A stretch of 64,000 nucleotides of DNA, taken from the NCBI RefSeq assembly GCF_004795895.1, contig NZ_CP039250.1, positions 2,232,001 through 2,296,000 on the forward strand, written 5' to 3'. The position numbers were made by a program, and so were the translations under genes. Positions 58,488 to 63,081 of the stretch are shown here, one piece after another. This DNA is from Sphingopyxis sp. PAMC25046. Its GTDB lineage: Bacteria > Pseudomonadota > Alphaproteobacteria > Sphingomonadales > Sphingomonadaceae. Under the pieces are notes generated by a model that saw only the letters and a program-made list of their open reading frames with translations, was not told the origin of the DNA and searched no databases. The number at the start of each line of letters is the position of its first letter. The stretch's first letter is position 1.

Positions 58488-58631
58488 GTCCCCACCCATA
58501 AGCGACGTCTCGCACAGATGCGAGCCGCTTGGCTAGGTCGCGGCGGGACGAGGCGAGTCATTCGTGCGATGGGTCGAGCGGGCAAGGTTTCGCTTGCCGC
58601 CGGGCGCCCGCGCGCTATGGCGACGGCACAA

Positions 58632-58721
58632 GGACAGGTGGCCGAGTGGTTTAAGGCAGCGGTCTTGAAAACCGCCGTGGGTGCAAGCTCACCGTGGGTT
58701 CGAATCCCACCCTGTCCGCCA
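58632..58721 (+). tRNA. tRNA-Ser (anticodon UGA)
   Basis: Acceptor arms GGACAGG (58632-58638) and CCTGTCC (58711-58717), G73 and an encoded CCA (58719-58721). The anticodon stem GCGGT/ACCGC holds CTTGAAA, anticodon UGA. The long variable arm and GGGTTCGAATCCC T-arm confirm class II. An integrase gene follows at 132 bases, so this gene is the likely attachment site of the downstream island. Confidence 0.96.
58698..58721 (+). other. Probable attachment site (attL) at the tRNA-Ser 3' end
   Basis: P4-type integrases commonly recombine in the T-arm/3' end of a tRNA gene and leave the gene intact. The 3' end from GTTCGAATC to CCA is the expected core. A second copy was not found up to 64000, so the right end should lie outside the window. 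Confidence 0.4.
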
Positions 58722-58852
58722 GGTTTCAATCCCACTCTTTCCCGAACCGTTTCCGAAACCCCAGCTTAGCTGCGGGTTTGAGATGCGATTCGTATCCCTG
58801 TGCGTCCCACATGATCCAGGCCGACATTTTTGCCAATGTGGGAACAAATTTT

Positions 58853-60016
58853 ATGATCAGAGGGATGAAAAGCACTTCGAACGGGCTGTCGCAGCCCAAG
58901 GAAAAACAGCGGCGCGTGAGTCTCGGCGACGGCCTCATGCGCCTCGAACGGCCAGGAGGCACCAGCAGCTGGGTGTGCCGGGTCCAGAGCGACGGCGTGC
59001 GCCGCGACTTCGGCCTTGGCAGTTGCCAGAAGGTCAGTCTGGCGCAGGCGCGCGAGATGACGCAGGAAATTCGCAGTCAGATCGAGACGGGCGTTGACCC
59101 GCACGTTGAGCGGCGCAAGCGACGGGCCGTGCCGACCTTCAAGGACGCCGCCGTCACAACCTACGAGATACACTCAAAGACATGGCGCAATGGCAAGCAT
59201 CACGCACAATGGATGCGAACGATGGAGCTTTATGCCTTTCCGCACATCGGCAAGTTCAAGGTCGATCAAATTACCGGCCCGATGATCCGCGACTTGCTCG
59301 CGGAAATCTGGCTGGCCAAGCCCGAGACGGCGCGCCGCGTCCGGCAGCGGATCGGCGCCGTCCTCGATTGGGCGTACGCATCGGGGTATCGCGAGACCGA
59401 TGCCCCGATGCGTGCCATCACGAAAGGCCTGCCCCGCCAGCCCCGCCGCGACAACCACTTTGCGGCGATGCCCTATGAAGATGTGCCGGCCTTCATACAG
59501 CGCCTGCGCGAGCGGGAATCGTTCAGCCGCCTCGCGCTCGAGTTTGCCATTTTCACCGCCGCCCGGTCGGGAGAGGTTCGCGGCGCCACATGGAGCGAGT
59601 TCGATCTGGAAAAGGGCCTGTGGAAGCTCTCCAAGGACCGGATGAAAGCCTATCGGGAGCATGTGGTTCCCCTCACCCGCCGCCCGCTGCGCATCGTCGA
59701 GCGGTGCGCGCGGTTGCGGATTAAGGGCTGCGACCTTGTCTTTCCCGGCATGCGGCGCAATCGCCCCCTGTCCGATCAGACGCTGACCAAGCTGCTCAGG
59801 GAAATGGGCGAGCCATACACTGCCCATGGGTTCCGCTCGTCGTTCCGGGATTGGGTGAGCGAGGAAACGAACCACCCGAGCGACGTCGCCGAAGCCGCCC
59901 TTGCGCATACCGTCGCAAACAAGGTCGAGGCCGCCTATCGGCGCGGCAACCTCCTCGAAAAGCGCCGCCTTATGATGGAGGATTGGGCGAACTATTGCGA
60001 CGGGAGGAAGCGATGA
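58853..60016 (+). CDS. Tyrosine-family site-specific integrase (P4 type)
   Basis: A 387-residue recombinase. N-terminal DUF4102-like arm-binding segment (GLMRLERPGGTSSWVCRV, FGLGSCQKVSLAQAREM), a SAM-like core-binding domain (FPHIGKFKVDQITGPMIRDLLAEI), and a catalytic domain with Arg in TAARSGEVRGATW, HGFRSSFRDW (His-x-x-Arg) and the final ALAHTVANKVEAAYRRGN with the His and catalytic Tyr. Complete active-site set. ATG 58853 (GGGAA upstream) is preferred; ATG 58865 is possible. The direction, pointing away from the tRNA-Ser, is normal for such islands. Confidence 0.93.
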   Translation: MIRGMKSTSNGLSQPKEKQRRVSLGDGLMRLERPGGTSSWVCRVQSDGVRRDFGLGSCQKVSLAQAREMTQEIRSQIETGVDPHVERRKRRAVPTFKDAAVTTYEIHSKTWRNGKHHAQWMRTMELYAFPHIGKFKVDQITGPMIRDLLAEIWLAKPETARRVRQRIGAVLDWAYASGYRETDAPMRAITKGLPRQPRRDNHFAAMPYEDVPAFIQRLRERESFSRLALEFAIFTAARSGEVRGATWSEFDLEKGLWKLSKDRMKAYREHVVPLTRRPLRIVERCARLRIKGCDLVFPGMRRNRPLSDQTLTKLLREMGEPYTAHGFRSSFRDWVSEETNHPSDVAEAALAHTVANKVEAAYRRGNLLEKRRLMMEDWANYCDGRKR

Positions 60017-60261
60017 GCCGCTACACCCGCGCGCGGCGCCACCTGCTCCGCCAATATGAGCGCGCCGTCGATCGGATCGACGAGGAGGATCGCGCGATCT
60101 TTCTCGGTCACCGCGTCGAGGAGCTTAGCTATCGCCAGCTTGCCGAGCGCCATGGCGTCAGCATAACGGAAGTCGAGGACGCGATGATACGCAGTTTGCG
60201 GGTCATCGCCCATTCGGTCGACAGGAAGAACCGCAGGTGGTGGCAATTCTGGGGACGATAG
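60013..60261 (+). CDS. Small sigma-70-region-4-like DNA-binding protein
   Basis: An 82-residue protein: IDEEDRAIFLGHRVEELSYRQLAERHGVSITEVEDAMIRSLRVIA has the two-helix pattern of sigma region 4, including a helix-turn-helix at SYRQLAERHGVSITEVEDAM. No region 2 is present, so it is a regulator rather than a full sigma factor. The ATG overlaps the integrase stop (ATGA), so it is translated with the integrase and may control the island. I do not know a named family member. Confidence 0.7.
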   Translation: MSRYTRARRHLLRQYERAVDRIDEEDRAIFLGHRVEELSYRQLAERHGVSITEVEDAMIRSLRVIAHSVDRKNRRWWQFWGR

Positions 60262-60313
60262 AGCCGCCTAGACCTTGCCAATCAGCCGCCACGCCGACAG
60301 GGTGCCGCCAGCA

Positions 60314-61243
60314 ATGAAAACCGACCTCGATCATCTTCCCGCCAACAAGCAGCGCGAGCTCGAACGCGTCAAAGCAATCGTCTTCGAAGAATTCGAAGAC
60401 GCCATCGCGCTCGGTACGATGGGCTGGAAGAAGAAGGGCCGGATCGACAAGATCATCCTCTATGGCAGCTATGCGCGCGGCGGCTGGGTCGATGAGCCGC
60501 ACACCGCCAAGGGCTACCGCTCGGACTTCGATCTGCTGATCATCGTCAACGACAAGCGGCTCACCGAGAAGGTCGACTTCTGGGGCAAGCTGGAAGACCG
60601 GCTCATTCGCGAACTCGCGATCGACAAGACCCTCAAGACGCCGGTCAACTTCATCGTTCACACCCTGCAGGAGGTGAACGACGGGCTGGCCCACGGCCGC
60701 TATTTCTTCATGGACGTCGCGCGCGACGGGATCGCGCTCTACGAGTATGACGACAAACCGCTTCACAAACCCAAGCCCAAGACGCCCGAGCAGGCGCTCG
60801 CGATGGCGCGGGAGTATTTCGACGAATGGATGCCCAGTGCTTCCGACTTCTACGATGGGCACGTAGATGCGAAGGCGCGGGGAAAATTGAAGAAGGCCGT
60901 TTTCGATCTGCATCAGTCAGCGGAGCGCATGTACCACTGCGTCCTTTTGGTTTGCACCTTCTACACGCCGCACGTCCACAATCTCGCCTTCCTGCGCACA
61001 CAGGCTGAGCGCATCGACATGCGGCTGGTCGATGTGTGGCCGCGCGAGCGCCGCGAGGACCGGGCGCGGTTTGAGAAGCTGAAAGAGGCTTACGTGAAGG
61101 CCCGCTATTCGAAGCATTACCGCATCACCGAAGAAGAGCTGACGTGGCTCGGCGGCTGCGTCGAGGAGCTCGGTCGTGCCGTTCACGCAATCTGCTCGGA
61201 GCGGATCGCCGCTCTCGAAGCAAGCGCTTCAACTCGCCCCTAA
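60314..61243 (+). CDS. Nucleotidyltransferase-HEPN fusion protein
   Basis: A 309-residue protein combining a minimal nucleotidyltransferase (IILYGSYARGGW with Gly51-Ser52, then YRSDFDLLIIV with Asp71 and Asp73) and a C-terminal HEPN domain (VFDLHQSAERMYHCVLLV, HNLAFL, KARYSKHYRITEEEL). The third acidic residue of the transferase is not clear: KTPVNFIVHTL has Asn where Asp is usual, so activity may be altered. No RxxxxH-type RNase motif stands out in the HEPN part. MNT and HEPN are often a two-gene toxin/antitoxin or signalling unit; here both are fused. ATG 60314. Confidence 0.8.
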   Translation: MKTDLDHLPANKQRELERVKAIVFEEFEDAIALGTMGWKKKGRIDKIILYGSYARGGWVDEPHTAKGYRSDFDLLIIVNDKRLTEKVDFWGKLEDRLIRELAIDKTLKTPVNFIVHTLQEVNDGLAHGRYFFMDVARDGIALYEYDDKPLHKPKPKTPEQALAMAREYFDEWMPSASDFYDGHVDAKARGKLKKAVFDLHQSAERMYHCVLLVCTFYTPHVHNLAFLRTQAERIDMRLVDVWPRERREDRARFEKLKEAYVKARYSKHYRITEEELTWLGGCVEELGRAVHAICSERIAALEASASTRP

Positions 61244-61458: not shown

Positions 61459-61722
61459 TTAGCCCCGGATCGCTTCCTTGATGACGGGGAGATACATACG
61501 CACCTGTTCGCGATCACTTTCCTTCTCGTCCTCCGTCAATGATTGATACGGAGTTTCGATCTGTCGCTCCCAACGCTCCACCAGTTCGGCGGGGATCACC
61601 AGAGAACCGTCCGGCTGCTTCACTGCCTTGTCGTGAAGATACCGCTGCCATTTGGCCCAACGCGCGTGCTCAATGTTGGCAAGTGTTTCAATTAGCCCGT
61701 CGATGATCTGATCGGTATTCAT
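61459..61722 (-). CDS. RyR-domain-like small protein, third gene of the TIR-caspase operon
   Basis: An 87-residue soluble protein. Residues about 10-81 match the RyR (ryanodine-receptor) repeat pattern: LANIEHARWAKWQRYL (His19, Arg21-Trp22; pattern LA..xHxxW), later TPYQSLTEDEKESDREQV (pattern PYxxLxxxEKexDR), ending MYLPVI. RyR domains occur alone in bacteria and have been proposed to bind nucleotide-derived signals. It starts 7 bases after the caspase gene stop on the same strand. The domain call is by motif only and needs profile confirmation. It has no signal peptide or membrane segment. Confidence 0.65.
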   Translation of the reverse strand: MNTDQIIDGLIETLANIEHARWAKWQRYLHDKAVKQPDGSLVIPAELVERWERQIETPYQSLTEDEKESDREQVRMYLPVIKEAIRG

Positions 61723-61729
61723 TCGATTA

Positions 61730-62710
61730 TCACACCAAGCCTTCGGCCACCAAGCGCCGATAGTGCTCGCCTAGTGCTGTGAGGCGGACGGACTTGCTCT
61801 CCATCGCAGCGTGATACATGTGCGGCGCGTCTTCGGGAACGAGGAGATTCAGGCGGTTAAACTTTTGCAAAATAGCGAAAATCTCATTCTTCTTTGGATC
61901 CGGAGCCGGAGCGGACGATATAATCTGAGCTACCGGGCGCTCGGGCTCGTAAGCAGGATCAAGCGGGAAGCGGCAATCCTTGTCGGGAAAGAATTCGGCA
62001 ATGCGCTGCAGGTCAGCCAGATCAATTGGCGGGCGCACTTTCCTCAAAGAAATGAAAGATTGCACGTTCGTTTTGAACACTGGACGCTGCGCCCAAGCCC
62101 AGAGAGATTGATCGATGTGCGCGTAGACGCTGCCCGGCGTTACGTCGCCAAGTAGGTTGGCTGCTCCACCGTCAAGAGCATCGCAGAAAAGCGTGGTGAA
62201 GACGCCGGAGCCGTTTTTTTCGCTCGCGTACTGATCTGCTGTTGACGCGGTAAGGATCGTCACTCCGTCTTTAAGCTCTGCTACGGCTCCATGTGTCGGA
62301 TGGTTTCCGGCAATGCCGCTGTGACAGCTGTCCAACACGACGATCTTGTTTCGGAAACCAGATGTGTTGGCAAATGTCATTATATCAGAGAGCGCCACAC
62401 CATCATTGCCGCTCTTGCAATCGCCGGCACACAGGTAACCGCCCGTGGCTTCGATGTGACCGTGCCCCGCGAAATAGAATAGGGCAACTTCACCGTCGCC
62501 TTGGAAAAGCCCTGCCACCGCACTTCGGAGCTCATCGCGATCGAGCATATCTTGAGGGTCATCGCCTACGACGGTGCGCACGTCAAAGTTGCGCGATTTG
62601 TCCTCGTTACGCTCAAGCCGAGCGGCCACAGCCTTTGCGTCATTCACGCACCCGAAGAGCGGAGAAATGTGCTGGTATTTATCTATCCCAACGACCAGTG
62701 CGCGACGCAT
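61730..62710 (-). CDS. Caspase-family (C14-like) protease
   Basis: A 326-residue protein. Residues 1-210 form a caspase/metacaspase p20-like fold: [12 protein letters not shown] at the start, [13 protein letters not shown] with catalytic His83, and [14 protein letters not shown] with catalytic Cys129. [21 protein letters not shown] continues the fold. After a linker the C-terminal 55 residues ([34 protein letters not shown]) are a small helical domain of unknown role, perhaps a sensor. There are no transmembrane segments. The ATG overlaps the TIR gene stop by one base (TGATG). In type IV Thoeris, a caspase-like effector is activated by a TIR-made nucleotide; this gene has the right partner and order for that. 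Confidence 0.88.
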
Positions 62711-63081
62711 CAGAGAGAGTCGATCCAAGCAGCGATGTTGTCCCAAGTCCAGATCATAGTGTTGAGACCATCGATCTTGGTGCGGTCATCCTTGTAAATC
62801 CACATGCCTCTAACCGGTTTGCTTTCCTCGAGCGCGCACTTGATCTCCCATTTCTGACCGCTCGATTTAAGGGAGTTTGCGCTGACCAAAGCCAAGACGC
62901 CGTCGGAACGACGAATACGCGCACGGACCTTGTCCTTCCACGCCTCGTCGTAAGCTTCTTTGACCGACATATCAATGTACTCGAAGGGAGAGCGAGTATT
63001 GAGCGACTGCCCTTTTAGGTAATCCCGTGAACGCTCATCTTCGATTGCAAATGCTACGAATACCACCTTTTTTGCAGCCAT
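62710..63081 (-). CDS. TIR-like (MTH538/ThsB-type) protein
   Basis: A 123-residue single-domain protein: [18 protein letters not shown] (first strand and loop), [55 protein letters not shown]. This is the PF08937 pattern (TIR-like, as in ThsB of Thoeris): second-strand hydrophobic block, Ser-Asp before LALVS, then the Trp-Glu motif in WEI. ThsB-type proteins cleave NAD+ to make cyclic ADP-ribose isomers as immune signals; catalytic residues should be checked by alignment. Start 63081 is chosen for the GGGGGC upstream and the domain start. First gene of the operon. Confidence 0.75.

Follow-up and report, generated by a model that had tools for sequence, protein, structure and literature searches.

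The window, that is, the whole stretch of 64,000 nucleotides analysed here from Sphingopyxis sp. PAMC25046, carries on its minus strand a TIR gene, a caspase-fold protease gene and a small RyR-like gene, arranged head to tail in this order. Based on sequence comparisons, our tentative interpretation is that these genes form an operon which is mobile, probably directed against phages and built like type IV Thoeris, with the RyR-like protein as an in-built sink for the signal, either a sponge or a hydrolase; we would give this reading slightly less than an even chance. The TIR-caspase type itself is already known, and what appears new, within the literature searched, is the RyR-like third gene in such an operon.

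The tight minus-strand layout described in an earlier note on this DNA was recovered in all its parts. The TIR gene (62710..63081, minus strand) encodes 123 aa and is a putative NAD+-using signal maker, the caspase-fold gene (61730..62710, minus strand) encodes 326 aa, and the RyR-like gene (61459..61722, minus strand) encodes 87 aa. The TIR stop codon (TGA, 62712-62710) overlaps the caspase start (TGATG, 62710..62712, minus strand), its A being the first base of the caspase ATG, so that a single base is common to both genes, and exactly 7 bases (61723..61729, minus strand) separate the caspase stop from the ATG of the RyR-like gene. A promoter scan gave a result at chance level.

In Pfam searches, the TIR protein matched PF08937 (ThsB_TIR, E = 5e-7) and the caspase-fold protein matched PF00656 (Peptidase_C14, E = 1e-17), each exceeding its curated cut-off, and PADLOC classified them as ThsB-like (1e-4) and as "caspase" (3e-19), respectively; the small RyR-like protein had no match in PADLOC or PHROGs. 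Among loci picked by similarity, His83 and Cys129 were kept in 87/87 aligned caspases, and E79, which we take to be the catalytic Glu position by comparison with other TIR enzymes, was kept in 81/81 aligned TIRs. Both the ThsB/MTH538-type TIR and the caspase fold with a His83/Cys129 pair, initially proposed from the letters alone, were therefore borne out. The best PDB matches were a metacaspase for the caspase (E = 0.025) and an unrelated design for the TIR protein (E = 4.6). The predicted model of the caspase had a pLDDT of 66.5, with residues 130-169 and 181-226 below 50, and its conserved C-terminal stretch (approximately residues 272-324) may be a candidate signal sensor.

Taken alone, the third protein matched PF02026 with E = 0.0021 and 18.7 bits, below the curated Pfam cut-off of 27.4 bits, and it is for this reason named RyR-like instead of being filed as RyR. 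The RyR signature claimed at first reading thus fell short for the single protein but was significant at the family level: 37 of 40 aligned members matched PF02026 at E ≤ 0.01 (best value 5e-6), and the family profile retrieved the RyR1 chimera entry 6uhi from the PDB at 4e-6. In addition, a relative with 86% identity (P0006) bears a precomputed PF02026 assignment. Fold searches with the predicted model of the RyR-like protein returned nothing significant, RyR3 R12 appearing only in a second look. H19 and W22 were kept in 23/23 operonic, 15/15 viral and 120/120 listed database relatives (the best 120 of 972), and D70 in 23/23, 14/15 and 120/120 of the same sets, respectively; position 53 (R53 in the window) was R or K in 18/23 operonic rows and variable across the family. 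A chance match to RyR was ruled out by the 972 homologues, by the residues kept in the 120 listed and by the specific neighbourhood.

A functional context for these residues is given by a preprint of May 2026 on RyDEP (phage DyoEdafos gp78). According to its main text, this phage protein attacks 2' and 3'cADPR at their ribose-ribose bond, which it hydrolyses by means of a catalytic dyad of H75 and D117, with W78 stacked on the adenine base and H100 contacting the phosphates (PMC13232231). The same text reports eight further phage RyR-domain homologues, six of which bound signals and none of which is reported there as cleaving them, with two characterised as sponges relieving Thoeris; it also describes the same pocket residues in animal RyR R12 domains, and 2' and 3'cADPR as exceptionally stable molecules for which no hydrolysing protein was known before RyDEP (PMC13232231). 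In our alignment, H75, W78, H100 and D117 of RyDEP fall on H19, W22, R53 and D70 of the RyR-like protein, and separate Pfam matches place H19/H75 and D70/D117 at the same model positions, if gap-free near the match ends. Direct comparison of the RyR-like profile with RyDEP gave no match (hhalign probability 0.2%), so that the link between the two runs via PF02026 and the matching residues. As sponges, the hydrolase and animal receptors all retain these pocket residues, sponge, hydrolase and co-receptor are inseparable by sequence. The idea raised in the earlier note, that the RyR-like protein may bind, buffer or degrade the TIR product, gains weight by analogy with these phage proteins, as far as they are described in the preprint's main text (PMC13232231).

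The operon was also said to lie in an integrated island, and the surroundings agree with this. A tRNA-Ser(TGA) gene (58632..58721, plus strand), the probable integration site, is followed by a tyrosine integrase (58694..60016, plus strand; these coordinates follow a mechanical ORF call, and the real start probably lies only after the tRNA), and the last 15 tRNA bases (58707-58721) recur exactly 23.9 kb downstream, at 82621 in extended coordinates (L127:4621). No other exact repeat of at least 15 bases of 58601-58900 was present within the 40 kb searched, and this copy sits where the G+C content drops to 56.8% and then climbs to 66.2%; it probably marks the far end of the island, past the end of the window. 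The span between tRNA and repeat (approximately 23.9 kb, roughly 24 kb) looks like a defence island, as it includes Shedu SduA (L126:10555-11976, extended coordinates 68555-69976; match 4e-170) and a type III restriction enzyme (L127:70-2658; match 6e-164), and additionally encodes a sensor kinase and an SMC/AAA-type ATPase. Convergent with the operon, a plus-strand gene at 60275-61243 combines a nucleotidyltransferase (Polbeta) and a HEPN domain, which makes it a candidate for a defence or toxin-antitoxin gene of the MNT-HEPN type. Between it and the integrase, 60028-60261 (plus strand) encodes a protein of 77 aa that has a helix-turn-helix resembling sigma-70 region 4.

RyR-like genes were repeatedly found together with TIR-caspase pairs. 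A plasmid search starting from RyR yielded 22 records, 20 of which had a caspase of the family, in 19 cases within 300 bp; sixteen of these 20 were read as loci and the other four by coordinates only, and the plasmid records include near copies (four from Rhizobium, two from S. paucimobilis). On an S. parapaucimobilis plasmid (L103) the RyR-like gene lies approximately 3 kb downstream of the caspase, beside a second TIR gene; on a Sphingobium cloacae plasmid it adjoins what is left of a caspase (a frame of roughly 66 codons) cut by an IS1380-type element; and a haloarchaeal plasmid was the only plasmid record with RyR and neither TIR nor caspase in the 10 kb read. Within the order of the window, an RyR-first search was positive in 4/396 genomes, each time beside a caspase or a remnant: intact operons were present in the window, G549 and G672, and caspase and RyR fragments occurred together in G689. 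At the class level, the RyR-like gene was detected in 1/385 genomes (the window's own) and the caspase in 3/385, and a class-level search centred on G549, in largely the same genomes, again detected the RyR-like gene in 1/385, that of G549 only.

Of the 26 loci read in which RyR and caspase, or what remains of them, occur together (window included), 22 had the order TIR-caspase-RyR on one strand, two of them with identical RyR, and they were distributed among alpha- and gammaproteobacteria, actinobacteria and one cyanobacterium. The loci outside this order were two with remnants (L101 and L133), the S. parapaucimobilis locus and one from R. rhizogenes (L102), in which RyR precedes the caspase and two TIR genes lie on the opposite strand. 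The neighbourhood check for conserved co-occurrence was thus positive, RyR being accompanied by caspase in 20/22 plasmid records and in 4/4 order-level positives, the remnant included. At four plasmid loci (L098, L114, L117 and L118) a metallophosphoesterase gene directly follows the RyR-like gene, and in L102 it follows the caspase; the metallophosphoesterase of these five loci is possibly a further signal-processing enzyme. Three of them (L098, L114 and L117) contain an additional TIR gene upstream. In Paenarthrobacter, a second TIR gene detected with the same profile (L119:5180-5596) lies slightly downstream of a complete TIR-caspase-RyR operon.

Searches starting from the caspase gave the reciprocal view. 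From the genomic search 80 of 118 relatives were kept, and eight of these 80 (L073-L080) were left out as distant caspases, resulting in 72 family loci. A TIR profile built from the TIR-like frames of the same loci matched in 65 of the 72, in 63 within 200 bases of the caspase frame. The RyR-like gene was present in four of the 72 (Leptolyngbya, Brevibacterium, Methylocystis and Luteibacter); in four of the 72, the sequence past the caspase frame is shorter than 350 bases, and two of these four loci have no sequence there. Among plasmids, 20 of 52 caspase records had the RyR-like gene, nine of the 52 being fragments that cover 39% of the caspase, and among TIR-caspase loci on viral contigs it was found in 0/6, one of which (L120) ends at the caspase. 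Given these frequencies, the core of the system is the TIR-caspase pair and RyR is an optional module. The presence in 4/72 genomic loci also rules out RyR as an obligatory third component. Absence of the small gene from most homologous loci, which by the earlier note would speak against its proposal, is literally what the genomes show (68/72), although the absence is phylogenetically structured. Of the three-component version proposed in the earlier note, therefore, the recurrent cassette stands and the universal third component does not. In nine genomic loci (L012, L018, L032, L036, L038, L039, L055, L062 and L064), the frame after the caspase resembles, by eye and as one sequence cluster, a second TIR instead of RyR. 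In three caspase loci, clustering revealed alternative third genes of approximately 160-170 aa, that of L056 lacking a Pfam match at 0.001.

In a quick tree of 84 caspases, RyR presence required 6 changes, compared to 19.0 in shuffled data, with 0/500 shuffles as low. Fourteen RyR-positive rows, belonging to alpha- and gammaproteobacteria and to actinobacteria, fell into one group (support 83, not starred). The RyR-positive share of the tree is inflated, since 16 of its 21 RyR-positive rows came from the RyR-based plasmid search and one is the window itself. The nearest caspase to that of the window was from R. ruizarguesonis (86% identity), also with RyR; the starred clade of nine rows that holds both had RyR in three and lacked it in six. 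Mean pairwise identity of the caspase C-terminal part was 0.613 with RyR vs. 0.659 without, and that of the catalytic part 0.587 vs. 0.621, indicating that, relative to the catalytic part, the C-terminal part is kept about equally in both groups of sequences.

These patterns bear on whether the RyR-like protein is instead a positive component, that is, a co-receptor that activates or scaffolds the caspase or broadens the signal range. Its position as last gene of the same operon and the conserved pocket residues would suit such a role, as would the existing proposal that RyR domains sense nucleotides. We nevertheless consider it unlikely, because 65/72 genomic loci have a TIR and 68/72 have no RyR, sisters within the starred clade included, so that the TIR-caspase pair presumably works without it, and because the C-terminal part of the caspase shows no clear relaxation in loci that carry RyR. 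As most caspase loci lack RyR, it would not be needed for activation in general, and given the equally kept C-terminal part it is probably no stand-in for a lost caspase sensor. Together, the retention of this part and the frequent absence of RyR favour a modulator over a receptor.

The RyR-like family itself belongs to phage gene content. In IMG/VR, 13 loci encode it, and neither TIR nor caspase was found in any of the 13 (0/13) within the contig stretch read; in five of them this absence is weaker, as less than 1.5 kb lies upstream of RyR. A PHROGs check of 20 larger frames from nine of the 13 loci detected terminase, portal and major head genes (L087), tail sheath and tape measure (L086), terminase and Erf (L096), primase (L092), a replication initiator (L085), an exonuclease (L089) and GroEL (L090); L097 matched families of unknown function only, and the one checked frame of L093 had no PHROGs match. 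Among phage records, 12 had a RyR match, eight of them named Microcystis phage (two pairs being the same phage) and one cyanophage. No TIR or caspase was detected in the neighbourhoods read of Microcystis phage LMM01 and Moorella phage MTATph1. Gene gp044 of LMM01 (L107:3998-4240), RyR-like and with no TIR or caspase close by, is a candidate anti-Thoeris protein. All three genes of the operon are present in an unverified metagenomic "phage" record (MT835687), its RyR and the one on an S. paucimobilis plasmid being identical. In the RyR tree, the split between operonic and viral sequences required 3 changes vs. 12.7 after shuffling (0/500 as low; bootstrap not settled), and the operonic RyR of Leptolyngbya was sister to that of LMM01 (97/85), whose branch was flagged as long.

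Two further explanations depend on these viral relatives. In the first, the RyR-like protein would answer phage counter-defence by competing with phage sponges, by recovering or modifying the signal, or by guarding the TIR signal; viral homologues that stand apart from TIR-caspase (0/13), several of them near phage structural or replication genes, are compatible with this. We regard this explanation as quite improbable, since we know of no signal-restoring or sponge-resisting activity of RyR domains, and 5/13 viral loci offer less than 1.5 kb of upstream context. The second, which appears very unlikely, is that the gene is a captured phage counter-defence or plasmid self-protection gene serving the mobile element, for example by limiting entry toxicity. 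Its higher frequency in plasmid records (20/52 vs. 4/72 genomic loci; Fisher p = 6e-6, with near copies among the plasmids and differing taxa) and its absence from the six TIR-caspase loci on viral contigs, with L120 ending at the caspase, would fit this origin. It is at odds with the constant operon position in 22/26 loci, with the clustering of RyR presence on the caspase tree (6 vs. 19.0 changes) and with the largely separate placement of operonic and viral sequences in the RyR tree (3 vs. 12.7 changes, 0/500).

Returning to the preferred reading of a built-in signal sink, infection would lead the TIR protein to convert NAD+ into an ADP-ribose-type signal, which would bind to the caspase-fold protein, perhaps through the conserved C-terminal stretch, and thereby trigger proteolysis. 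The RyR-like protein would take the same signal into its His/Trp/Asp pocket and either hold it, as a sponge, or hydrolyse it. Such a sink could set an activation threshold and stop leaky signalling, as ring nucleases do in type III CRISPR. Against a sink stand the absence of the RyR-like gene from 68/72 genomic loci, six rows of the nine-row starred clade around the window among them, the replacement of the phosphate-binding H100 of RyDEP by R53, the lack of a match in the direct profile comparison with RyDEP, as well as the difference between the RyDEP substrate (2'/3'cADPR, in the main text of PMC13232231) and the signal reported for type IV, as far as the consulted part of its source goes (N7-cADPR, PMC12847820).

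A broader proposal, which we put forward as rather doubtful, is that TIR-caspase immunity includes a host-encoded off switch (glycosidase or sponge) and that phages obtained their RyR counter-defence genes from such operons; the latter part is suggested by the sister relationship of the Leptolyngbya and LMM01 sequences (97/85, with LMM01 on a long branch). If true, one small protein module would act on both sides of the phage-host conflict. With an RyR-like gene located inside a TIR-caspase operon, it becomes possible to test directly whether cADPR-type immune signals are terminated on the host side.

Regarding known systems, Burroughs et al. (2015) reportedly suggested that RyR domains sense nucleotides in conflict systems, and may list TIR neighbours; type IV Thoeris is reportedly the subject of Rousset et al. 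(2025). No TIR-caspase operon with a RyR gene was found in the literature searched by titles and abstract openings, these two works lying outside that search. A phage-encoded sponge that, by its title, binds the signal of a TIR-caspase system is reportedly described by Chen et al. (2026); it differs from the RyR-like gene of the window, which is part of the operon. Ring nucleases of type III CRISPR are host-encoded enzymes that remove an immune second messenger, and they are comparable to the putative sink only in the way they work, protein and signal being unrelated.

Type IV Thoeris, in the part of its description consulted, comprises a TIR protein and a caspase-like protease with N7-cADPR as signal (PMC12847820). 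The operon of the window resembles it in gene architecture, with the TIR gene directly upstream of the caspase-fold gene in one operon, and in the active-site residues kept in both proteins, and differs by its third, RyR-like gene. RyDEP and its phage homologues share with this gene product the small size, the RyR domain and His/Trp/Asp at the positions matching H19, W22 and D70, and relatives of the present RyR-like family occur in phages as well. RyDEP, however, is phage-encoded, whereas the RyR-like gene shares an operon with the gene of the putative signal maker; moreover, RyDEP has the phosphate-contacting H100 where the RyR-like protein has R53, and the two show no direct sequence match. 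The main text of the preprint mentions neither N7-cADPR nor type IV, "caspase" occurring once, in the reference list, so that a host operon of this kind is left untreated there (PMC13232231). Finally, the RyR-like family resembles the R12 domain of ryanodine receptors (PF02026), as judged from the match to the RyR1 chimera at 4e-6 and the retained pocket residues, and differs from it in consisting here of a single bacterial domain of 87 aa with a single-sequence score below the Pfam cut-off; through this likeness, the finding touches on a long-standing question, namely what is sensed by the RyR R12 domains of animals.
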